The notes below the pieces were generated by a model. The model had not been told where the DNA came from. It saw only the letters and a program-made list of their open reading frames with translations, and did not search any database. Made by a program: the position numbers and the translations under genes. From the IMG/VR virus record IMGVR_UViG_3300029914_000120, positions 1 to 25,974 of that record: a DNA stretch of 25,974 nucleotides; one strand, written 5' to 3'. Below are positions 6,341 through 24,286 of this stretch, piece by piece. The DNA comes from a virus. Numbering within the stretch: position 1 is the first letter of the stretch; each line of letters opens with the position of its first letter.

Positions 6341-6370
6341 GCAGCCACTGGCTACCGGGCTGGTGGCTGC
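6341..6370 (+). terminator. strong hairpin downstream of capsid gene (possible terminator or mRNA-stabilising element)
   Basis: GCAGCCAC and GTGGCTGC are perfect 8-bp arms, and the interior can add further pairs with G-U wobbles. There is no T-run after it, so it is not a classical intrinsic terminator. It sits 12 bases after the capsid stop codon and just before heptad array 2. Confidence 0.45.
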
Positions 6371-6371
6371 T

Positions 6372-6413
6372 CTCTGACCACTGATCTCTGAAAACTGGCA
6401 ACTGACAACTCGT
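6372..6413 (+). repeat. heptad array 2 (6 units)
   Basis: Six consecutive 7-bp units: CTCTGAC, CACTGAT, CTCTGAA, AACTGGC, AACTGAC, AACTCGT. The core CTGA/ACTG recurs exactly every 7 bases. The array runs into the SD hairpin of the next gene, overlapping it by two bases. Confidence 0.85.
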
Positions 6414-8923: not shown

Positions 8924-8958
8924 TCACTGTCCACTAATTGCTAACCACTAACCACTGA
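8924..8958 (+). repeat. heptad array 4 (CCACTAA subtype, 5 units)
   Basis: Units TCACTGT, CCACTAA, TTGCTAA, CCACTAA, CCACTGA occupy most of the gap between tail terminator and tail tube. The last unit shares its final two bases with the SD hairpin. Confidence 0.85.
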
Positions 8959-13881: not shown

Positions 13882-13923
13882 TTCACTGTGAACTACGAAC
13901 TATGAACTATGAACTGCGAACTC
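13882..13923 (+). repeat. heptad array 5 (TGAACTR subtype, 6 units)
   Basis: Units TTCACTG, TGAACTA, CGAACTA, TGAACTA, TGAACTG, CGAACTC lie between the tape measure stop and the ribosome site CCGGAG of the fibre gene. From here rightward all arrays are of the TGAACTR subtype. Confidence 0.92.
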
Positions 13924-13946: not shown

Positions 13947-16184
13947 ATGCGAATCCAAAACCTTCGCGCGGCCCTGGCCGTGCTCGCGGGGCTGTTTTTC
14001 TCTGTCGTTGCCGGCGCAACCGCGCAGGTTCCTGTGGGCTGGGTGCAGGTGTCCGCCACCAACCAGATGAATGGCGGCGCTCTGGTCGCCAGCGGCACAG
14101 TCAACTTCTATCCGGTGAACAATAGCATCCAGCCTCTCAGCCTGCGCGTCGCCGGGGGTACGGGTGCGGCGGCCACGGCCACCTTTGGCGTGGGCATCAT
14201 CTCGCAGACGCCCGGTTCCGGTTACAGTGGCTCGTGGACCTGCACGGTTGTGGGTGGAACCTATTCCTCGCTGGCCACCTGTACGGCCACGGTCTCGAGC
14301 GGTGGCCTGGTCTTCGCCATCCCCTATCAGGGCCAGTACACGGTTGCGCCTACGGGCATCACCTTCACCGGTGGCACCTATACCGCGGGCTCGCCGGCCA
14401 GCGCAGTTATCACGCTTGGGGTCAGCGGCACCACTGTCACGGCGGGCGGGTCTGGCTACGCGGGAACTATCGCCGTCTTCCCCAGTTGCACCACGCAGCC
14501 AACATCCACCGTTACGGTGTCGGGCGGCGCTGTCGTCGGCTTCACCGCATCCGGCGGCATTTGCCCCACCAGCTCCGTCGTCTCCATTCTTGGCAGCGGC
14601 CAGGTGGGGCCTGCGCCCTTCACGGCCACGGTCACAAACGGCGTATGGAGCATCCTTGTGCCGGACACGGTCTCCACGTTTCCCGCCAACCCCTGCTACA
14701 ACATCATCGTTGTCGACAACGCCAGCGGCCAGACTGACTCCGGCCCTGGCTATAGCTGTGTGCAGCCCGCCGGATCCGGCACGGCCGTGAGTGGCGGCGC
14801 GGACTGGTGCACCGCGCAAACCAGCACGGCCGGCGGGACGTGTAACTTTGATATCTACCCGCCCAATCTCTCGGCTAACGTCACCGTTCAGACAGGCCCC
14901 GTTGGGCCAACCGGCCCAACGGGGCCGACAGGTGCTACGGGCGCAGGGGGCAATGCGACGCTTACTTCCGGTTCTAGCGGCCAGCTTACGCAGGTTACCG
15001 GCAGCACCACATTCGCTGGCATCAGCGGTACCAGCGTCAGCGGTTCCGGCACCTCGCAAGTGGTCACCTACCCAGGCCAGGTGGCCGCTTATTCGGTGCA
15101 GGTCAACGGCGCGTCCTCAGCTGTGGCGCTGTCTAGCAATGGCGGAATCTATCAGAACATGGGCACTACGGCTAACGAGCAGACGCTGTGGGGTAGCCGT
15201 GTGGGCATAGCTATCCCTGTGCCTTACGTCATGCCCACCGGGACCGCTAAGAACATTGCTTTTGATGTGGTGCCGTTGGCGGGGGCGACGAACTTTAGCT
15301 CCAGCACGGGTGAGGCGTGGGTTGATATTTGCGACGGAGGTTTTTCCACGCCATGCAACCAGTCGGGCACTGTGAATTATGAAACCATCCGGCTGGGGAT
15401 ACTGTCAACCGGGGATGGGTTCCTTTCATCTGAAGCGGGCGGCACTGGGACTATTCATAACCTTTTCCTTCAGAATAGCTTTGGCAATGTGATGATTGGC
15501 AGCGAGGGAACTACAGAACCGGCATGGCCACTGGTTGTAGCGGAGACGACGAATCCGGCCATTCAACTTACCGATGGGACTGGGACAAATTCCTGCTATT
15601 TATCCAAAGTAAGTTCATCAAACGCATTTATCTCCGGCGCAGCAGCGAACGACCAGATTGATCGCTGCACGGGCGGGAACATGCTTTTCGGCAGTAACTC
15701 ATCCACCCCCGGACCAACGCTGGAAATTACTCCTGGAGCACCGGGCACTGTAGAGTCGTTCGGTAATTTAATGGTGCTCGATCCTCACGGTCATGCTTCA
15801 GCGGAGACGCATGCCTCATCTGACTGCGTTAGCGGCGGCGGGATTACAACGGTCAATACTGGCGGCGCGGTGACAAGTACGGCGCTCAGCTGTCTTCCGG
15901 CTTACGCTTGGATTGATTCGATTGGCTACATCATCACCACAGCCATAACCACAGCTACGAGTTTCACGGTAGGGGATTCCGGATCGGCAACCCGCTACAG
16001 TTCATGCCAGTTCTCTGGCGGTGCTCAGTCAATGGCTCTGGGGGCGACGGGCGACTGTGATGCTGGTCAATACAAAATAGGTGGCACTGCTCTCCCGGTG
16101 CAGTTGACTTTCAACACGACTCCGGGGGCTGGGGTCGTGCGCATCATCGTTAAATATCACATTGGCGTGCCCCCCGCCAGCTAA
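13947..16184 (+). CDS. secreted collagen-like fibre or adhesin
   Basis: 745 residues. ATG 13947 is chosen because CCGGAG lies 7 bases upstream; the frame is open further but would translate the heptad array. The N-terminus is a good signal peptide: RIQNLRA, a hydrophobic core ALAVLAGLFFSVVAGA, cleavage near ATA-QV. Residues 40-300 are Gly/Thr/Val-rich beta repeats with several cysteines. GPVGPTGPTGPTGATG (about 317-332) is a collagen-like segment, and the rest is a beta-rich C-terminal part ending VRIIVKYHIG. The 3' third (from about 15250) is visibly less GC-rich, suggesting a swapped tip module. Place behind the tape measure suggests a virion fibre, but the signal peptide suggests export; both remain open. 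Confidence 0.7.
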   Translation: MRIQNLRAALAVLAGLFFSVVAGATAQVPVGWVQVSATNQMNGGALVASGTVNFYPVNNSIQPLSLRVAGGTGAAATATFGVGIISQTPGSGYSGSWTCTVVGGTYSSLATCTATVSSGGLVFAIPYQGQYTVAPTGITFTGGTYTAGSPASAVITLGVSGTTVTAGGSGYAGTIAVFPSCTTQPTSTVTVSGGAVVGFTASGGICPTSSVVSILGSGQVGPAPFTATVTNGVWSILVPDTVSTFPANPCYNIIVVDNASGQTDSGPGYSCVQPAGSGTAVSGGADWCTAQTSTAGGTCNFDIYPPNLSANVTVQTGPVGPTGPTGPTGATGAGGNATLTSGSSGQLTQVTGSTTFAGISGTSVSGSGTSQVVTYPGQVAAYSVQVNGASSAVALSSNGGIYQNMGTTANEQTLWGSRVGIAIPVPYVMPTGTAKNIAFDVVPLAGATNFSSSTGEAWVDICDGGFSTPCNQSGTVNYETIRLGILSTGDGFLSSEAGGTGTIHNLFLQNSFGNVMIGSEGTTEPAWPLVVAETTNPAIQLTDGTGTNSCYLSKVSSSNAFISGAAANDQIDRCTGGNMLFGSNSSTPGPTLEITPGAPGTVESFGNLMVLDPHGHASAETHASSDCVSGGGITTVNTGGAVTSTALSCLPAYAWIDSIGYIITTAITTATSFTVGDSGSATRYSSCQFSGGAQSMALGATGDCDAGQYKIGGTALPVQLTFNTTPGAGVVRIIVKYHIGVPPAS
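14895..14926 (+). repeat. perfect 14-bp inverted repeat inside collagen-like coding region
   Basis: GGCCCCGTTGGGCC and its exact complement are separated by AACC. It encodes the Gly-Pro-Val/Thr repeats of the collagen-like segment. It could form a very stable RNA hairpin or a recombination hot spot between fibre modules. Confidence 0.85.
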
Positions 16185-17206: not shown

Positions 17207-17215
17207 CAAGCAATT

Positions 17216-17243
17216 CGGTGGCACGGCTCCAGTCGTGCCACCG
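17216..17243 (+). repeat. REP-like perfect hairpin
   Basis: CGGTGGCACG and CGTGCCACCG are exact 10-bp complements around GCTCCAGT, just after the stop of the preceding gene and 3 bases before heptad array 6. There is no T-run. It could be an mRNA-end stabiliser or a REP-type chromosomal repeat. Confidence 0.7.
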
Positions 17244-17246
17244 GCT

Positions 17247-17281
17247 TCAACTGTGAACTAAGAACTGTGAACTGCGAACTG
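17247..17281 (+). repeat. heptad array 6 (TGAACTR subtype, 5 units)
   Basis: Units TCAACTG, TGAACTA, AGAACTG, TGAACTG, CGAACTG. It runs from a REP-like hairpin to the SD hairpin of the next gene. Confidence 0.92.
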
Positions 17282-17282
17282 T

Positions 17283-17299: not shown

Positions 17300-18019
17300 A
17301 TGAGCAAACTGATTCTCAACACGCTCGGCGCCGCCGGCGTCATGGCGCTGTGTGCGCTTACATACGCTCTGGCCTGCTGGTCGAACGCGGGCAAAGCTGT
17401 CACGTCTTCCGCGTCTCACCTCGACGGCGTTCTCACCTCGGCGGACGCCGCGATGAAGACGCTCAACCATCCGTGCGCGCCCGGCCCCTGCGGCACGCTG
17501 GCTGAGGTTGACAAGGCCGTGGTGCACCTCAGCGATATAACCGTCGCCGTGCAGCAGCAGGCCAACGCCAGCGGCAAGCTTATGCAGCACGCATCGGCAA
17601 CGCTTGACGGTATTGGCCTTGACGCGCGGAGCGAGCTCGCCGATCTGAAAGCCGCCACCACCGCAACCACGGGCCTGGTGGAAGATGGCCGCCAGGTCAT
17701 GGTGCAAACCAACCGCGACCTGGTCACGCTCAACGATTCTTTCGCAGCCTTGAAGCCTGTCATCGATCATGCGGACTCTGTGGTCGATCACGTCGATGTG
17801 GCCGTCAGTTCTATCACGCCCGACGCGCAACGGCTGGTAAAGAACTCAGCCGATGGCGTTGGCCAGCTCGCGGGCATCGCCGGCGACACGCACAAAATGA
17901 CCACGCACATTGAGAAGGACTTTGACGCGCCCGCGCCCTGGTGGAAGAAGACAATCCCCATGGCCAGCGACGCCGCCAAGTTCTACGCATGCGCCGTGCA
18001 GCATGTTTGTGTCAACTGA
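17300..18019 (+). CDS. membrane-anchored coiled-coil protein
   Basis: 239 residues. ATG 17300 is chosen from the CGGAG site; the longer frame would translate the heptad array. The N-terminal segment LNTLGAAGVMALCALTYALACW is a membrane anchor or signal peptide. It leads a long Ala/Asp/Val-rich helical domain with regular heptads (LKAATTATTGLVEDGRQVM, VIDHADSVVDHVDVAVSSI). Near the end come WWKKTIPM and two cysteines. No enzymatic motif is visible. The layout (anchor plus long periplasmic helix) recalls an inner-membrane spanin or a chemoreceptor-like rod. Neighbouring holin-like and peptidase genes make a lysis role thinkable; an outer-membrane partner is not obvious. Confidence 0.7.
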   Translation: MSKLILNTLGAAGVMALCALTYALACWSNAGKAVTSSASHLDGVLTSADAAMKTLNHPCAPGPCGTLAEVDKAVVHLSDITVAVQQQANASGKLMQHASATLDGIGLDARSELADLKAATTATTGLVEDGRQVMVQTNRDLVTLNDSFAALKPVIDHADSVVDHVDVAVSSITPDAQRLVKNSADGVGQLAGIAGDTHKMTTHIEKDFDAPAPWWKKTIPMASDAAKFYACAVQHVCVN

Positions 18020-18312: not shown

Positions 18313-18753
18313 ATGCAACTCACCGAACACTTTGCCGACACTGAACTCGGCGTCGCCGGCGCGGATCCGCGTCTCATTCAAAACGCATCGTTTCTCTGCC
18401 TCGGCGTTCTTGAGCCGCTGCGCCTGCAGTTCGGGCCGGTGGCCGTGCATGATGGTTACCGGGACCTGGCACATAACCTGCGGGTCGGCGGCAAGCTGGA
18501 TAGTTACCACTTGTTCATAGGCGGTCAGGCAGCGGCGGATATCAGCGTCACGGGCGAAGGCTGCGACGCGGTGTTTGACTGGCTTCGGCTTGAAAGCGGG
18601 CTTCCATTTGACAAAGTGATTCTGGAACGCAACGCGCAAGGGTTCTCCGCCACGGTGCACATTCAGGTGGACAGGCTCAACGCGCCTCGCCGCCAGGCCT
18701 TTACCGGCTCAACCGGCGATGCCACGGACTACATTCCTTCGACTGTGAACTAA
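18313..18753 (+). CDS. M15-type D-Ala-D-Ala peptidase, probable endolysin
   Basis: 146 residues resembling M15 zinc peptidases that cut peptidoglycan stems. Landmarks: LTEHFADTELGV start, VLEPLRLQFGPVAVHDGYRD, HNLRVGGKLDSYH (H66), AAADI (D76), and TVHIQVD (H116). The three expected zinc ligands are present, but H66 and D76 are nine residues apart rather than the usual six (SxHxxGxAxD), a three-residue insertion IGG-like. GAGGAG precedes ATG 18313. The last residues (STVN) and the TAA stop are encoded by heptad array 7. With the holin-like gene it would form the lysis pair. Confidence 0.75.
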   Translation: MQLTEHFADTELGVAGADPRLIQNASFLCLGVLEPLRLQFGPVAVHDGYRDLAHNLRVGGKLDSYHLFIGGQAAADISVTGEGCDAVFDWLRLESGLPFDKVILERNAQGFSATVHIQVDRLNAPRRQAFTGSTGDATDYIPSTVN

Positions 18754-18780
18754 GAACTAAGAACTAAGAACTGTGAACTG
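18739..18780 (+). repeat. heptad array 7 (6 units, supplies a stop codon)
   Basis: Units TCGACTG, TGAACTA, AGAACTA, AGAACTA, AGAACTG, TGAACTG. The stop codon of the peptidase lies inside (TAA at 18751), and the ribosome site ACGGAG of the next gene follows directly. Confidence 0.92.
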
Positions 18781-18799: not shown

Positions 18800-19450
18800 G
18801 TGAGTTACCCCACTTTCAACGGCTGGACCATCATCGATCCGCCGCCCTCGCCTGGCTTTAGTGGCATTGTGCTGCGCATGATTGACACGGTGGGTAAAGT
18901 GCGCTCGCCCTTCTCTGCGCAATCGCAGGTGCAGCTCTGGCCTGGCGCGGATTGGTGGGAGTTTGAATACGAGATGCCGCCGCTTTCCCTGGCGCAGGCT
19001 GCCGACTGGCAAGGCTGGCTAGCGTCGCTGCAGGGGGGCGCTAACGTCTTCCAGGTTGGTGATTCCAACCGCCCGCAGCCGCAGAACCCGGTGACAGGTT
19101 CCATCCCGGTGTGCGCAACGGGTGCGCTGCCCTCGGCCGTCAACCTGGCGGGCGCAACATCCCTGGCTACCAGCGGCTGGCGGCCATCGCAATCGCGCGT
19201 CCTGTTGCGCGGCGATTACTTGCAGGTGGGCTATCGGCTGCATATCGTACTGCAGGCCGTCAGCAGCGACGTCAACGGCGACGCCACTATCAACGTATGG
19301 CCCAGCCTCCGTGAGCAGCCCGTGCAGGGGCAGGCAGTCATCCTCAATTGCCCCAAAGGCCTATTCTGGCTTGCTTCCAACGCGCGGCAGCTCTCCATCT
19401 CCGTCACCCGGCTGTCCGCCGTCGGCTTCAAGTGTGTGGAGGCGAGATGA
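18800..19450 (+). CDS. minor tail protein, distal-tail/DUF2460 position
   Basis: 216 residues, GTG start at 18800 behind ACGGAG. The N-terminal half (FSGIVLRMIDTVGKVRSPFS, LWPGADWWEFEYEMPPLSLA, WLASLQGGANVFQVGDSN) reads as a beta-rich tail-tip domain; the second half is also beta-rich and ends SISVTRLSAVGFKCVEAR. It is first in the order distal tail, hub, NlpC/P60, tip, which matches GTA- and lambda-like tips. I assign it to the tail tip by position and style rather than by a firm motif. ATGA overlap with the next gene suggests coupling. Confidence 0.7.
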   Translation: MSYPTFNGWTIIDPPPSPGFSGIVLRMIDTVGKVRSPFSAQSQVQLWPGADWWEFEYEMPPLSLAQAADWQGWLASLQGGANVFQVGDSNRPQPQNPVTGSIPVCATGALPSAVNLAGATSLATSGWRPSQSRVLLRGDYLQVGYRLHIVLQAVSSDVNGDATINVWPSLREQPVQGQAVILNCPKGLFWLASNARQLSISVTRLSAVGFKCVEAR

Positions 19451-19683
19451 AGACAGTGGGCGGTGAACGGTGCGCATTAAGCAGCAAAGCGCTTCCGCGC
19501 TGCCGTAAGGCGGTTCTCCGCCTCTCGCAGCATGAATGGCCGCTTGTTGGCGGCGGTTCGCTGCGTCTTCTGCCGATCGAGGAAGAACGTGAGCTCATCG
19601 GGGATCTCCGGGCTTTTGCTTTGACTGAGAACTGTGAACTAAGAACTGTGAACTGTGAGCCGGAGGCGAACCATGCCTCGTAA
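19447..19683 (+). CDS. small overlapping hypothetical in tail-tip operon
   Basis: 78 residues starting MKTVGGERCALSSKALPRCR. The start overlaps the upstream stop (ATGA) behind GGAGGCG, and the end overlaps the hub gene by 11 bases. The core LSQHEWPLVGGGSLRLLPIEEERELIGDLRAF looks like a real folded segment with acidic helix. The last 19 residues (LTENCELRTVNCEPEANHA) are the translation of heptad array 8, so the protein tail is repeat-encoded. Function unknown. Confidence 0.6.
   Translation: MKTVGGERCALSSKALPRCRKAVLRLSQHEWPLVGGGSLRLLPIEEERELIGDLRAFALTENCELRTVNCEPEANHAS
19621..19655 (+). repeat. heptad array 8 (5 units, inside a reading frame)
   Basis: Units TTGACTG, AGAACTG, TGAACTA, AGAACTG, TGAACTG, followed by TGAGCCGGAGG as ribosome site of the hub gene. 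It is read through as coding sequence by the small gene at 19447 because that one frame lacks stops. Confidence 0.92.
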
Positions 19684-20224
19684 CCTCGCCACGCCGAATC
19701 AGACGGCCGTCCTGAGTCAGTTTGTGGAGCTGGTGCTCCTTGTTCGTCTCGACTTTGCGCCGGAGACGGTCTATCTCTGCTCTGCCCCGTTCAATCTGGT
19801 TTGGGGCGGCCAGACGTGGCTCGGCGTCGGCGCGCTGGGCAAGGTGTCTGGAGTTACTGAGGCTTCTGAAGTGGGCGCGCAGGCCACCGTGCTCACCATG
19901 ACGGGGATACCTGTGGAGTATATGGGAGACGCTCTTCAGGTGATTGTCTATGGCGGCGTGGCGCAGCTCTATGTGGGGTTCCTGTCCGCCGGCGCTTTGG
20001 TGACGGACCCCATCCCGGCAAATCTCGGCTTGATCGACGCGCCGGATCTCGACGTGGACGCGCCAACCAGCACCATCTCCATCACCATTGAAAGCGAGAT
20101 GGCCGATCTGCAGCGTGCGCGCGGCGGCCGCCTCACCACCTGCGACCAGCGCAGCCGGTTCACCTTTGATGCCTGCTGCGATATCATCTCGCAGATTCAG
20201 GACAAGCTGCTGCTCTGGCAGTAA
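19673..20224 (+). CDS. tail-tip hub protein, DUF2163-like
   Basis: 183 residues. The sequence MPRNLATPNQTAVLSQFVEL, LVRLDFAPETVYLCSAPFNL, VWGGQTWLGVGALGKVSGV, TEASEVGAQATVLTMTGIP fits the N-terminal half of DUF2163 proteins, the hub of GTA and related tails. SLGLIDAPDLDVD-like and ITIESEMADLQRARGGRLTT with CDQRS follow. GTA hub proteins are longer, so this is a short version. CCGGAGG precedes ATG 19673. The NlpC/P60-like gene downstream matches the known tail-tip order. Confidence 0.75.
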   Translation: MPRNLATPNQTAVLSQFVELVLLVRLDFAPETVYLCSAPFNLVWGGQTWLGVGALGKVSGVTEASEVGAQATVLTMTGIPVEYMGDALQVIVYGGVAQLYVGFLSAGALVTDPIPANLGLIDAPDLDVDAPTSTISITIESEMADLQRARGGRLTTCDQRSRFTFDACCDIISQIQDKLLLWQ

Positions 20225-20226
20225 GG

Positions 20227-20240
20227 CAGTTCGCAGTTCG
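20227..20240 (-). repeat. inverted heptad pair (2 units, opposite orientation)
   Basis: CAGTTCG twice, the reverse complement of the CGAACTG unit, 2 bases after the hub stop codon. With the forward array at 20284-20297 it can form a 14-bp stem (two G-U pairs) around 43 bases. Confidence 0.8.
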
Positions 20241-20269
20241 TAGCCGGTTTCGTATGCGGGATGTGATTC

Positions 20270-20297
20270 GCAACTGTGACCTGTGAACTGTGAACTG
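20270..20297 (+). repeat. heptad array 9 (4 units)
   Basis: Units GCAACTG, TGACCTG, TGAACTG, TGAACTG. The last base is also the first base of the SD hairpin of the NlpC/P60-like gene. Confidence 0.92.
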
Positions 20298-20315
20298 TTT
20301 TTCCGGAGGAAAAAC
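20297..20315 (+). promoter_or_regulatory. Shine-Dalgarno hairpin of NlpC/P60-like gene
   Basis: GTTTTTCC and GGAAAAAC pair perfectly over 8 bp around a GGA triloop and end two bases before GTG 20318. Same geometry as the tail tube hairpin, with a T-A pair swapped for A-T. Confidence 0.65.
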
Positions 20316-20317
20316 CC

Positions 20318-20761
20318 GTGATTCATCGCAAGCAAAACTGGCAGACGCTGCTGCACAACTTCCTTGAGCAGCGCAAAGACGAGCCCTTTGCCTGGGGCGC
20401 GAACGACTGTGCGCTTTTCGCGGCCGATGCGGTCGCCTCATTCACCGGCTCGGATCTCGGCGACGGCTTCCGCGGCCAGTATTCCGATGAGGCCGGCGCG
20501 CTGGCGCTGATGAAGGCCACCTGCGGCTCTCCGGATGCGCTGGCGCTCGGCGTCTACCTTTGCGCTAAGGCAGGCTTCGCGCCCTGGTCTCACGTCAACT
20601 TCGCGCGCCGTGGCGACGTCCTGGTCCTGGCCAATCCGGATGGTTCGCATTCGCTGGGCATCGTGGCGCTCAACGGCGTCCATGCGCTCTTTGTTACCAC
20701 GGGCGGCCTGCGCCGCATGCGCGTCCGCGATTGTGTAGCCGCATGGAAGGTGGGGGCGTGA
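20318..20761 (+). CDS. NlpC/P60-like tail-tip peptidase (DUF6950 type)
   Basis: 147 residues, GTG start behind CCGGAGGAAAA. FAWGANDCALFAADAVASFTG carries the catalytic Cys candidate in the DC motif of the DUF6950/NlpC-P60 type. A second segment RRGDVLVLANPDGSHSLGIV, then GVHALFVTTGG, matches the following strands. Such proteins sit at the tail tip and are thought to cleave peptidoglycan during infection or assist tail assembly; in lambda the counterpart is K. A His to complete the dyad is H665-independent: the HSLGIV histidine is a candidate only by position. The stop overlaps the next start (TGATG). Confidence 0.8.
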   Translation: MIHRKQNWQTLLHNFLEQRKDEPFAWGANDCALFAADAVASFTGSDLGDGFRGQYSDEAGALALMKATCGSPDALALGVYLCAKAGFAPWSHVNFARRGDVLVLANPDGSHSLGIVALNGVHALFVTTGGLRRMRVRDCVAAWKVGA

Positions 20762-20976
20762 TGGCGCAGTTCACAGTTCGTAGTTCGCAGTTCGCAGCAC
20801 GGCTGGACGCTCCGTGTCCCGCTTGTGGCGCGCACGCGGGGCATCCTTTCGTGGCGTTCTCGCGTTACAACCCAGCGCCGGCGCTGATGCGTGGTTTTCA
20901 TCGCGAGCGCCGGGCTTTAACTGTGAACTATGAACTGCGAACTGTGAACTGCGAGCCGGAGGCACACCATGGCTAA
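20761..20976 (+). CDS. small CxxCG protein flanked by inverted heptad arrays
   Basis: 71 residues. Start ATG overlaps the upstream stop behind AAGGTGGGGG; the 3' end overlaps the tip gene by 8 bases. The middle CPACGAHAGHPFVAFSRY has a CxxC plus two His, a possible zinc site. The N-terminal residues QFTVRSSQFA are encoded by an inverted heptad array, and the C-terminal VNYELRTVNCEP by a forward array. So only about 40 residues are not repeat-derived. Function unknown. It may be a genuine small protein or the by-product of a repeat-flanked insertion. Confidence 0.5.
   Translation: MAQFTVRSSQFAARLDAPCPACGAHAGHPFVAFSRYNPAPALMRGFHRERRALTVNYELRTVNCEPEAHHG
20767..20794 (-). repeat. inverted heptad array (4 units, opposite orientation)
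   Basis: CAGTTCA, CAGTTCG, TAGTTCG, CAGTTCG, the reverse complement of the TGAACTG unit. It pairs with the forward array at 20917-20951 to form inverted flanks around 122 bp. Confidence 0.92.
20917..20951 (+). repeat. heptad array 10 (5 units)
   Basis: Units TTAACTG, TGAACTA, TGAACTG, CGAACTG, TGAACTG, then CGAGCCGGAGG as ribosome site of the tip gene. The last 14 bases are the exact complement of the first 14 of the inverted array at 20767. Confidence 0.92.
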
Positions 20977-23900
20977 AGCAATAATCGGCGCGGTCGAAAT
21001 CGGCGTGGGCGTCGGTCTGCTCGTCATGCAGCCGGAGCTTGCGCCTCTCTCCTGGGGCCTCATCATGTCCGGCGCGGGCATGGAGGTGGCCTATGTGGCG
21101 GAGATGTTGCAGGGTAACCCCGCGCTCACGGCAAGCGCCAAGCTGCCGGCTGCGCCCCGCGAGTTTGTTGTGGGCATGGTGCGCAAGGGGTGCACGTTCA
21201 TCTATCAGTCCACGACGGGGCATCAGCTGAATGAAGTCCCCATTTGGGCGGCCAACGCATGCCAGGCTATTGTTGCCGTTTACGTCGACCAGCGGAAACT
21301 CTATTACATTGACAACCCGACCGCCGATGGCTCGCCTTATGGTGGGGGCGTTGGCGATGGCAACACCTACCAGGACGATAGCGGTAATAATTACAGCTTC
21401 GGCAGCGAGACGGCTGCCTGGCACACACTGGGGCAGCTCTGGTCTTCTGGCGCATGGTCCGCCGGCATGACGGCCACGCGCGTCCAGTTGGCGACCGGCG
21501 ACACCGCATCGACCTTCGCGGCTACCACCATCGGCGTAACTATCAATGGAACGGTCTTTGTCTTCGGCTGCCTCGTGCCAGGCACAGCGGGTTCCTCCAG
21601 CAGCGTCTTCTCTGGCGCGGCCGCCGCGGGGACACAAGTGACTGACGGCGGTATTTTGTGGGTCAATCTGGGCCCCGCGCCTGGCGGATATTGGTTCAGT
21701 GCGCTCAACGGGCAGGATACCTCTCAGTGGCTCAATAACTGTCTCTGTGTGAACCTCTGCGCCTCCTATCTGAAGTTCACTTATGATGCCAATGTCTTCA
21801 GCGGGCCGCCGCAACTCCGGGCCACGATTATGGGCGCAAACGATGTTTACGACCCGCGCACCAGCACCTACGGGTACAGTACCAACAGCGCGCTCGTCTG
21901 CGCGTGGCTCATCGTAAATCCGGAGGTCGGCTTTGGCGCAACCCCGGGCACTCCGAAGGCGGCGGCGCTCTGGGCTGGCGTCTATGAGGGCATCTTTGGC
22001 GACCAGTTGATTGCCGCGGCCAACCTGTGTGATGAGCAGGTGCAGCTCACCGTCGGTTCTGTCGCCGGCAGCCCTACGCCCGCGCCTCCGTGGCAGCCAT
22101 TCGGCAACTACAATATCGGCGACCATTTCAACTACGGCAGCGACATCTTCGTAGTGAACACCGCCTACGTGTCGGGCGCGTACTTCGGCGAAGACGACGG
22201 TACGCATATCACCGAGATTATCGGCAGCGGCCTGAACCCTTCTACATACGAGAGTCGCTACACATGCAACGGCTATTTCAACTCTGACCAGGAGCCGGGG
22301 CAGATCCTCTCTTCAATGCTTATGTCCTGTGAGGGGCGCATCGTGCGTCAGGGCGGCGGTTATCTGATTTACCCGGCCGCCTGGTATGGCACCAGCCTCA
22401 ACTTCGGGGCGGATGACCTGTGCGGCGCCGTAAAATGGTCGCCCTCGCGCAAGTTCCGCGATCGCGTCAATTGCATGCGCGGAACCTTTATCTGCCCGCA
22501 GTACCCTTATAACCAGGTTGGCTACAGCTACGACTACAAGAATGGGGGCGTCTTTAACGGCGAGTGGCAGCCGACAGACATTCCGCCTTACGCGCAGGAT
22601 TATCTCCACGGCTACGGCCTCATCACGGATCCGGGCCAGGGCGATGCGAACCTGGTGCAGGATGGCGGCGTGCGGCTCTATGGCGACCGGCACTATCAGT
22701 TCGTCATTTCGGTGGCCCAGGCTCAGCGCCTGCTCAAGATTTATATGCTGCGTAACCGTTTTGCGGGCTCGGGCACTTTTCCCATGAAGCTCTCTGCGCT
22801 GCAGGCGCAGTCGCAGGATGTGATGAATTTCACGTTTGCGCCGCTCAACATGGTGGATGCCTATCTCGAAATCAGCAAGTTTGATTGGGTGTTGGCGGAG
22901 GGAGACGATGCCGGCGAGGGCGACGCGCCGCGGGCTATGCGCCTTACCACGCAGATCGAACTGCAGCTCACTGACCCGAGTGTCTACGAGTGGACGGCGG
23001 CCGAGGAGATGACTCTCTACGATCAGCCGAGCCCCGCGCTCAATAACCCATTCGCCGTTTCCGCGCCTGCCTCGTTGACGGCCATCTCAAACCTGAGTAC
23101 CGCGCTGGTCTCGCCGGATGGCACGGTGACCCCGCGTATCGAGCTCACCTGGACGGAGTCCGCGGATCCGTTCGTGACCAGCGGCGGCGACGTGCAGGTG
23201 CAGATCTCGCCGCACAGCGCCGGCGCCTGGGCAGATGTGGCCACGCTGAATGGGACGGCTGCTTTTATCTACATCGGCAACGTGGTCACCGGCAATGCCT
23301 ACGATTTGCAAGTGCGCTTCCGGCGCGGCTCTGGCGCATATTCCGCATGGTCGCAGCTCATCAATGTTGTTTGCGGCTTCGTCGTCAATGCAACCGGCCT
23401 CAACGCCGTTGCGCCGGCCGGCACGCTCTCCGCTGTCACCACTTCCGCCACCGTGTCCGTCATTCTGATCGGTAACTTTACCGGCACGGCGGCCGGTGTC
23501 AGCGGTTCGTTTGTGCCGAGTCCCACAGACATCACCGCCCTCACGCCGCAGACGCTTTATTACGTCTACTTCATTGAGTCGGCCTTCGCTACCGGGACCA
23601 TCACGCCGATCGCCACAACCAACATCAATGACTTTCTGAACGTGCCAGGTTATTGGTTGATAGGCTCCATCCTCACGCCGCCATGGACCGGCGCCGGATC
23701 CTACTATGCCCCTTCCAACTACAACGATCTCGGCCCATTTCAAACCAACTCGCCCACTTATGCGTATGACGGCAACTTCGCAACCCGCGCAAGCATAACG
23801 TCCAACGCCTATAGCGGATCCTCTTTTGGTGAGTGCCTCTATGAGGATTTCCCGGCCGTCACGGTGGGGGCCGGCAAGCAGCTCAATGTGAATGCGGCGG

Positions 23901-24286
23901 TCTCTGTCCCTGGCGGCCCTGCGCTGTGGGCCATCACCGCATGCATCGGCGGCGGCAGCAAGCCGCAGGGGGTTGAACTGCAGGCCTTCAATGCGCGTGG
24001 CGCGTGGGCGGCCACAACTGCCTATGCGGTGTGGGACACGTTCACTGAGAGCGGCATTACTTATCTCGTGGTCTCCGCCTATACCTCCGGGGGCACCTTC
24101 GGATCCACGGATATTGCGGCAACATGCGTAGTGCTCGCCTCCGGGAATGCCTCTGCTGCGCAGACCACCTATGCCGTGACTGTGCCAACCGGCACCTTGA
24201 TCAGCGGCATAACCGTTGACGTCGCACTCAACGCACCCGCCAGCATAGGCGCGTTTGTCTACGCCTATGAGATTTGGATCCAATGA
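20969..24286 (+). CDS. tail-tip / receptor-binding protein (lambda J-like)
   Basis: 1105 residues, largest gene of the window. It begins with a hydrophobic segment (IIGAVEIGVGVGLLVMQ). The hub-like core follows: FVVGMVRKGCTFIYQST, LTVGSVAGSPT, YFNSDQEPGQILSSMLMSCE near 440, KWSPSRKFRDRVNCMRGTFI near 490, RHYQFVISVAQAQRLLKIYM-like near 580. A fibronectin-III-like region lies near 720-800, and a Ser/Thr/Gly-rich C-terminal part probably binds the receptor. Three inserts resemble small carbohydrate-binding modules: about 193-234 (GTAG, VTDGGILWVNLG), 374-411 (WQPFGNYNIGDHF) and 1010-1052 (AYAVWDTFTESGITYLV). CCGGAGG precedes ATG 20969. Confidence 0.88.
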   Translation: MAKAIIGAVEIGVGVGLLVMQPELAPLSWGLIMSGAGMEVAYVAEMLQGNPALTASAKLPAAPREFVVGMVRKGCTFIYQSTTGHQLNEVPIWAANACQAIVAVYVDQRKLYYIDNPTADGSPYGGGVGDGNTYQDDSGNNYSFGSETAAWHTLGQLWSSGAWSAGMTATRVQLATGDTASTFAATTIGVTINGTVFVFGCLVPGTAGSSSSVFSGAAAAGTQVTDGGILWVNLGPAPGGYWFSALNGQDTSQWLNNCLCVNLCASYLKFTYDANVFSGPPQLRATIMGANDVYDPRTSTYGYSTNSALVCAWLIVNPEVGFGATPGTPKAAALWAGVYEGIFGDQLIAAANLCDEQVQLTVGSVAGSPTPAPPWQPFGNYNIGDHFNYGSDIFVVNTAYVSGAYFGEDDGTHITEIIGSGLNPSTYESRYTCNGYFNSDQEPGQILSSMLMSCEGRIVRQGGGYLIYPAAWYGTSLNFGADDLCGAVKWSPSRKFRDRVNCMRGTFICPQYPYNQVGYSYDYKNGGVFNGEWQPTDIPPYAQDYLHGYGLITDPGQGDANLVQDGGVRLYGDRHYQFVISVAQAQRLLKIYMLRNRFAGSGTFPMKLSALQAQSQDVMNFTFAPLNMVDAYLEISKFDWVLAEGDDAGEGDAPRAMRLTTQIELQLTDPSVYEWTAAEEMTLYDQPSPALNNPFAVSAPASLTAISNLSTALVSPDGTVTPRIELTWTESADPFVTSGGDVQVQISPHSAGAWADVATLNGTAAFIYIGNVVTGNAYDLQVRFRRGSGAYSAWSQLINVVCGFVVNATGLNAVAPAGTLSAVTTSATVSVILIGNFTGTAAGVSGSFVPSPTDITALTPQTLYYVYFIESAFATGTITPIATTNINDFLNVPGYWLIGSILTPPWTGAGSYYAPSNYNDLGPFQTNSPTYAYDGNFATRASITSNAYSGSSFGECLYEDFPAVTVGAGKQLNVNAAVSVPGGPALWAITACIGGGSKPQGVELQAFNARGAWAATTAYAVWDTFTESGITYLVVSAYTSGGTFGSTDIAATCVVLASGNASAAQTTYAVTVPTGTLISGITVDVALNAPASIGAFVYAYEIWIQ

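Follow-up and report, generated by a model that had tools for sequence, protein, structure and literature searches.

Probable host-type heptameric repeats at gene boundaries of a tailed phage and a probably incidental 71-codon ORF that crosses two of them

Introduction

Intergenic heptamers of the types GGGAATC and GGGGA(C/T)T have been described in Xanthomonas and Nostoc; in the sections of that account used here, one strand lies close after stop codons and the other close before start codons, inverted pairs possibly form stem-loops, and the places of the repeats are conserved while their copy number changes (PMC4692102). The same sections report intergenic heptamer repeats from several bacteria and state that their function is open (PMC4692102). 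Direct repeats of TAACTGA are known from marine Beggiatoaceae, cyanobacteria and Bacteroidetes, and the sections of the source used here place them in forward orientation, just upstream of starts, in sets of 2-6 (PMC4679880). No published account of GAACT heptads in Acidobacteriota or phages was found in the literature searched, which comprised sources other than subscription journals.

Here we analyse a stretch of 25,974 bp from a tailed-phage record, referred to throughout as the window, in which arrays of a GAACT heptad lie at gene boundaries. A preliminary description had picked out two facing arrays as putative mobile or recombining ends of a small cassette, carrying a CxxCG mini-gene, between an NlpC-like gene and a tail tip gene.

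Gene order and heptad arrays of the phage

The genes of the phage run in the order terminase, portal, major head protein, tape measure, distal tail protein, phrog_2048 tail protein, DUF6950 and J-like tip. Two further records, G001 and G002, are near-identical to the phage and extend it upstream by up to 11.9 kb; they carry further heptad arrays in this extension, and both end before the NlpC-tip junction. The genes around that junction are as follows.

19655-20224, tail gene upstream of DUF6950, its stop just before the short reverse array 20226-20243
20318-20761, + strand, DUF6950 gene (the NlpC-like gene of the preliminary description), PF22262 E 3.5e-33, phrog_2134
20969-24286, + strand, tail tip / central fibre J-like gene, phrog_5616 and phrog_31

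Eight places in the window carry the heptad; the bracketed NlpC-tip stretch is thus one of several.

13885-13922, + strand, heptad array, core ending 24 nt upstream of the start at 13947
17249-17282, + strand, heptad array, core ending 19 nt upstream of the start at 17300
18742-18779, + strand, heptad array, containing the stop codon of gene 18313-18753, core ending 20 nt upstream of the start at 18800
19624-19658, + strand, heptad array, core ending 18 nt upstream of the start at 19673
20226-20243, - strand, short heptad array just past the stop of tail gene 19655-20224
20272-20298, + strand, heptad array, core ending 21 nt upstream of the DUF6950 start, inverted partner of 20226-20243
20765-20797, - strand, reverse heptad array (AGTTCNN on the + strand), TRF period 7, 4.7 copies, core beginning 6 nt past the DUF6950 stop, 5' hairpin arm
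20919-20951, + strand, forward heptad array (GAACTNN), TRF period 7, 4.7 copies, 3' hairpin arm

The array unit is GAACTNN, in which NN is GT, GC, AA, AC or AT. The 26-kb window holds 14 matches to GAACTNNGAACTNNGAACT and none to the reversed pattern, and a uniform scan of it for short tandem arrays of periods 4 to 12 returned six, all with period 7. The arrays are therefore not a product of chance.

Their placement in the window, counted with genes named by hand rather than from scripted gene calls, is regular. A GGAG site lies downstream of every forward array; in five of the six, the distance from the array end is 7-8 nt to GGAG and 18-21 nt to the start, and in the sixth it is 14 nt to GGAG and 24 nt to the start. 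At 20919-20951 the GAACT core ends 7 nt ahead of GGAG and 18 nt ahead of the tip start. Both reverse arrays begin 3-6 nt past a stop codon. The inverted arrays that had been claimed at 20767-20794 and 20917-20951 are real, and their limits were right to within a few bases by TRF and repeat pairing: in a repeat search, 20765-20797 pairs with 20921-20953 as inverted 33-nt arms, 88% complementary and 123 nt apart. A second, smaller inverted pair (20228-20239 and 20285-20296) lies one gene upstream, and four further gene boundaries of the window carry a single array each.

Two more spacers of the window, at 6367-6410 and 8941-8956, hold weak heptad-like stretches of other sequence (AACTGGC/AACTGAC and CTAACCA), likewise a short way upstream of Shine-Dalgarno sites. 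A near-perfect GC-rich hairpin at 17207-17248 (GGTGGCACGG...GTCGTGCCACC) lies directly 5' of the array at 17249-17282.

The NlpC-tip junction in relatives

The preliminary description had proposed a comparison of this junction in related phages, with relatives that all carry the gene between diverged, non-repeat ends as the outcome that would speak against it. That is not what is seen: the mini-ORF is absent from the junction in all 12 relatives compared, a set that includes two near-identical pairs (G010/G014 and G329/G517). The tip start overlaps the DUF6950 stop or lies at most 71 nt past it in 11 of the 12, compared with which the window spacer is an extra 207 bp. Among the ten relatives other than G009 and G020, all with 71 nt or less, six have overlapping genes.

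G009 is the closest relative (76% identity in DUF6950), and its junction holds an unrelated 149-aa ORF (L092 9019-9468) that starts right past the DUF6950 stop and gives a sub-threshold ASCH-domain match. The possibility that the mini-ORF is a decayed copy of this ASCH-like ORF was discarded, as the two show no similarity. A near-identical empty allele of the junction was not found, the nearest relative having another ORF there. With the mini-ORF in none of the 12 relatives, 11 short junctions and a different ORF in G009, the NlpC-tip junction is, on this comparison, evidently a variable slot. The two junctions that precede it measure 6 and 7 nt in G009 (by ORF limits); in the window they measure 204-222 nt, depending on which start is taken, and 93 nt, which identifies the array-bearing spacers as expansions.

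In G020 the junction carries a heptad array of another type, CCCCTGA (L002 5448-5479), and no cassette; it is the only period-7 array in 10.4 kb. This array sits ahead of a Shine-Dalgarno hairpin, TTTTCCGAAGGAAAA, which a TTTTTCCGGAGGAAAAA hairpin ahead of DUF6950 in the window resembles. In a prophage relative (G482, L298 15385-19873), about 4.5 kb is inserted between a phrog_2048-like tail gene and DUF6950. Searches of viral contigs by peptide patterns found no relatives of the tip gene, and viral sequences gave no stretches matching a back-translated CPACGAHAGHP pattern and none matching an array-to-start pattern.

Heptads in cell genomes and other viral contigs

A four-copy GAACT pattern matched contigs of many phyla, with Acidobacteriota among the matches listed. 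Three-copy matches were present in 17 of 17 genomes picked because they contain arrays, at 9 to 353 each, and the reversed control gave 0 to 7. In the family of G263, the broad GAACT pattern was found in 32 of 120 genomes and its reversed control in 11 of 120; there are thus other heptads, and the GAACT unit is not diagnostic by itself. The dialect of the phage, GAACTRY, occurred in five of 299 genomes of the class to which G026, a Candidatus Sulfotelmatobacter record, belongs, and was most frequent in G263 (16 matches). Relatives of the phage portal (E<=1e-20) were present in 27 of 250 genomes of the G263 family, the best at 55% identity. Because heptad patterns and dialect are shared and portal relatives occur there, the host of the phage is likely to be found in or near the G263 family, among Acidobacteriota of the class of the Terriglobia records. 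The class and family names are inferred from a Terriglobia record (L107, G024) and an Acidobacteriaceae record (L143, G030) that fall within the groups searched.

In regions chosen around arrays, period-7 arrays numbered 47 in G028 versus at most four at any other period, and 17 versus none in G275. Antisense (AGTTC-sense) arrays in co-directional spacers are placed towards the stop in 11 of 11 cases in G028, 2/2 in G263, 3/3 in G275, 2/2 in G034 and 24/28 in mixed genomes. Forward (GAACT-sense) arrays are nearer the next start in 4/10, 0/3, 2/4, 1/1 and 8/24 cases across five cell sets, which is less regular than in the phage. Arrays of opposite sense that neighbour each other within 400 bp follow the order reverse-then-forward in 39 of 44 cases, the two of the window included, and they lie between co-directional as well as convergent genes. 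In 77 loci of other viral contigs, some of which are stretches of one contig (three of 80 had been dropped as the phage of the window itself), 11 of 12 opposite pairs are reverse-then-forward, and a stop codon is no more than 12 nt away from 19 of 31 reverse arrays. All loci used for polarity were fetched for containing GAACT arrays, and they inform on placement rather than prevalence. Host and viral genes were called with a home-made script, and single placements can be wrong; in the window this script treated the mini-ORF and the ORF at 19447-19683 as genes and scored some arrays there as intragenic.

A locus common to G263 and G314 has kept the arrays on either side of a small gene in place with altered copy number and variable letters, which argues for in-place growth and turnover as opposed to transposition. 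Copy-number change at a conserved place was thus seen at this cell locus. In the same genomes (L304 8368-8812 and L308 4503-4930), a small gene lies between arrays in the opposite sense, with GAACT before it and AGTTC after it, and their copy numbers differ between the two genomes. Several arrays in L354, L359 and L361 (G275) and in L121 have a common non-repeat inner flank like GGTTTTACTGAGAAC, which suggests a conserved seed next to the heptads.

Repetition of the interiors was examined with 16 query stretches, namely 14 paired-array interiors and two single-array spacers of the window, compared by BLAST with the collected loci. One related pair only was recovered, both members in G028, a genome rich in paired arrays (L334 11399-11530 and L337 1117-1248, on opposite strands, 78% identical over 133 bp), and it is the only hint of a copied unit. 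A search of the whole G028 genome with this element returned 74 places, of which only itself and one other covered the interior; the remainder matched the heptad ends alone. The interiors of the window matched only themselves among the collected loci and relatives. When compared with the features of MITE-like elements, the junction therefore has the terminal inverted repeats (33-nt arms, 88%) and lacks the repeated interior.

The 71-codon ORF

Two ORFs of similar build cross arrays in the window.

20761-20976, + strand, CPACG mini-ORF of 71 codons, its ATG overlapping the DUF6950 TGA (TGATG) and its end overlapping the tip start
19447-19683, + strand, second like-built ORF of 78 aa, with an ATGA overlap with the upstream stop, crossing a heptad array and ending past the next start

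The mini-ORF contains CPACGAHAGHP and, as had been reported, both flanking arrays are read as protein, the frame running through the two of them. The ORF at 19447-19683 ends in ELRTVNCEPEA, a C-terminus that the mini-ORF matches since the array and the next 20 nt are nearly identical at the two places. In simulated spacers built from window heptad units and a Markov interior, the chance of the frame being open was 15% for the mini-ORF and 11% for the other; that both are open together is mildly unexpected.

The GC content of the mini-ORF by codon position is 0.68/0.54/0.61, and that of its interior 0.76/0.63/0.63. Neighbouring genes are mostly about 0.6/0.5/0.75, and the third position of the mini-ORF is unlike that of most of them. 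Pfam gave a weak match to PF24623 (Phage_zn_bind_8, a phage zinc finger), with E 0.056 and 13.6 bits versus a cut-off of 24, in which the alignment covers the CPACGA part. The same family scored 6.6 bits in the genome search, and at E<=1 it also matches in eight of 14 control genomes. There was no NCBIfam match to the mini-ORF at E<=1 and no PHROGs match at E<=0.01. Among 50,697 phage records there was no significant homologue, the best match having E 0.02. Against 398 family genomes, 79 matched at E<=0.1 where about 40 were expected, the best at a weak E of 0.0025, and the excess is perhaps due to common CxxC motifs. The candidate of a zinc-finger mini-gene, pursued from the weak Pfam match through 29 genomes or records, the phage records and the 398 cell genomes, yielded nothing significant and was set aside. 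An AlphaFold model from the single sequence, which is a weak test, had a mean pLDDT of 43 and no confident fold. The 71-codon ORF is probably incidental and not a selected gene.

RNA folding at the junction

The facing arrays form the arms of a predicted hairpin.

20755-20980, + strand, hairpin predicted in the intercistronic RNA, with an MFE of -123.5 kcal/mol and z -7.5; none of 200 shuffles was as stable

The smaller inverted pair at the previous gene folds with z -2.8, and the single-array spacer at 19445-19680 has an unremarkable fold (z -1.3). Modelled accessibility of the tip start without a ribosome is 0.35, and the 22 starts of the window span 0.22-0.56; sequestration of the tip start was rejected on this mid-range value. 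A model ribosome raises accessibility to 0.67 when placed at the ORF end and to 0.45 at the DUF6950 stop, and leaves it at 0.35 in mid-ORF. Within 19000-21500 no Rfam match was found at E<=0.1, and a structured RNA of a known family was rejected. A Rho-independent terminator between DUF6950 and the tip gene was likewise dismissed; none was called there, and the scan total was six versus a shuffle mean of 8.8. The predicted hairpin may be functional, and the modelled folds and accessibilities would allow a role in coupling without singling coupling out.

Origin of the arrays

We favour, with a probability of about 0.7, the explanation that the arrays are host-type intergenic heptameric simple-sequence repeats which have grown at gene boundaries, and that the ORF that runs through the two arms at the NlpC-tip junction is probably incidental. 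The arrays have the features of that class of repeat: tandem units of seven bases, scattered between genes, with strand polarity at gene ends. The placement rule in the phage is AGTTCNN just past a stop codon and GAACTNN just ahead of a Shine-Dalgarno sequence, and a spacer bearing arrays at both ends will hold a facing pair, such as that at 20.77-20.95 kb, as this rule predicts. Replication slippage or unequal recombination within the spacer would create the arrays and alter them, and they would be tolerated because both edges halt where a stop codon or ribosome-binding site begins. Where a spacer holds both array types, the arrays face each other and the transcript could fold into a long hairpin, of which 20755-20980 would be the largest case. 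The 121 bp between the arms would then be ordinary spacer DNA and the 71-codon ORF open mainly by chance. Against this explanation, the regular distance of 18-21 nt between array and start could reflect a leader function under selection and not passive filling, and PF24623 gives its weak match to the mini-ORF. The start and end overlaps of the mini-ORF also resemble those often found in real phage genes, and a second ORF has the same layout, the two open frames together being mildly unexpected.

The proposal that a tiny mobile or recombining cassette, with the inverted arrays as its terminal inverted repeats, carried the CPACG mini-gene into the NlpC-tip junction is very improbable, and we reject it in favour of repeat growth. 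It draws on the 207 extra bp at a junction that measures no more than 71 nt in 11 of 12 relatives, on the complementarity of the 33-nt arms (88%) and on the one heptad-ended G028 pair with a common interior (78% over 133 bp). However, the interior of that element is covered by just one of the other 73 matches in G028, the interiors of the window match only themselves in the loci compared, the junction of G020 holds another heptad without a cassette, and polarity at gene boundaries already predicts the facing order. What stands of the insertion proposed in the preliminary description is the extra DNA relative to kin, none of the 12 having the mini-ORF and 11 having at most 71 nt or an overlap; a discrete cassette is not supported, as interiors are not repeated, apart from one related pair, and G020 bears another heptad. 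Heptads as mobile or recombining ends find no support, given the single arrays at four other gene boundaries of the window, the interiors unrepeated but for that pair and the in-place change at the G263/G314 locus. A real small accessory gene, placed between the K-like and J-like tail genes, coding for a zinc-binding CxxCG protein and later overgrown at its ends by heptads, is unlikely. The TGATG overlap with the upstream stop and the overlap with the next start are in keeping with such a gene, as are the weak Phage_zn_bind_8 match (E 0.056) and the presence of another small ORF in the slot of the closest relative, G009. That match, however, reaches 13.6 of the 24 bits needed and the family is matched at E<=1 in eight of 14 control genomes, the 50,697 phage records hold nothing significant, the family-genome matches are weak, and both the codon-position GC, unlike that of most neighbours, and the pLDDT of 43 speak against it.

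It is also rather improbable that the junction is a selected intercistronic RNA device, in which post-stop and pre-Shine-Dalgarno arms would pair, the tip start would be opened by a ribosome that terminates on the NlpC-like gene or translates the bridging ORF, and copy number would tune tip output. The hairpin z scores of -7.5 and, at the previous gene, -2.8 are in its favour, together with the spacing of 18-21 nt from starts in five of six forward arrays, the ORFs that bridge the spacers 19451-19672 and 20762-20968, and the rise in tip-start accessibility from 0.35 to 0.67 with a model ribosome at the ORF end. Yet the tip start is not specially hidden (0.35 within the range 0.22-0.56 of 22 starts), no ORF bridges the spacer 20225-20317, which holds the other inverted pair, the spacer fold at 19445-19680 has z -1.3, and relatives do without such a device. 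We give the same low weight to a wider version, that the heptad code of the host has been adopted as interchangeable RNA arms in the tail operon, with AGTTC post-stop arms pairing with GAACT arms before ribosome sites, bridging ORFs carrying ribosomes through the hairpin and copy number setting the output of the next tail gene.

A phage with the heptad dialect of one host lineage, its arrays set at a nearly constant distance from starts, offers a small genome for measuring slippage, host-phage repeat exchange and effects on translation. It also calls for caution in annotation: an ORF that crosses heptad arrays is easily taken for a gene, and a pair of inverted arrays for a mobile element.

Comparison with known heptamer repeats

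As far as the part of the source used here describes them, the Xanthomonas and Nostoc heptamers share with the phage arrays a unit of fixed and variable letters, intergenic spread, stop/start polarity and inverted pairs able to form stem-loops. The phage unit GAACTNN differs from the GGGAATC type described there in having no G-runs for quadruplexes, and the repeats here are also in a phage and at a near-constant distance from the Shine-Dalgarno sequence. Elhai and others (2008) reportedly found small dispersed repeats of Nostoc embedded in heptameric repeats; those elements associate with heptamer arrays, whereas the phage has no repeated interior. The copy number of 7-bp tandem repeats upstream of hmw1A and hmw2A is said to tune their expression in Haemophilus influenzae, and the phage arrays resemble these in being 7-bp tandem repeats ahead of a gene. 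Phage_zn_bind_8 (PF24623) aligns with the CPACGA part of the mini-ORF at a score far under its cut-off. The TAACTGA repeats, in the part of their description used here, are like the phage arrays in being heptamer arrays with an AACT core that lie forward just upstream of start codons. They overlap the expected ribosome-binding site, however, whereas each forward array of the window precedes a GGAG site, and the phage unit is GAACT(GT/GC/AA/AC/AT) rather than TAACTGA.
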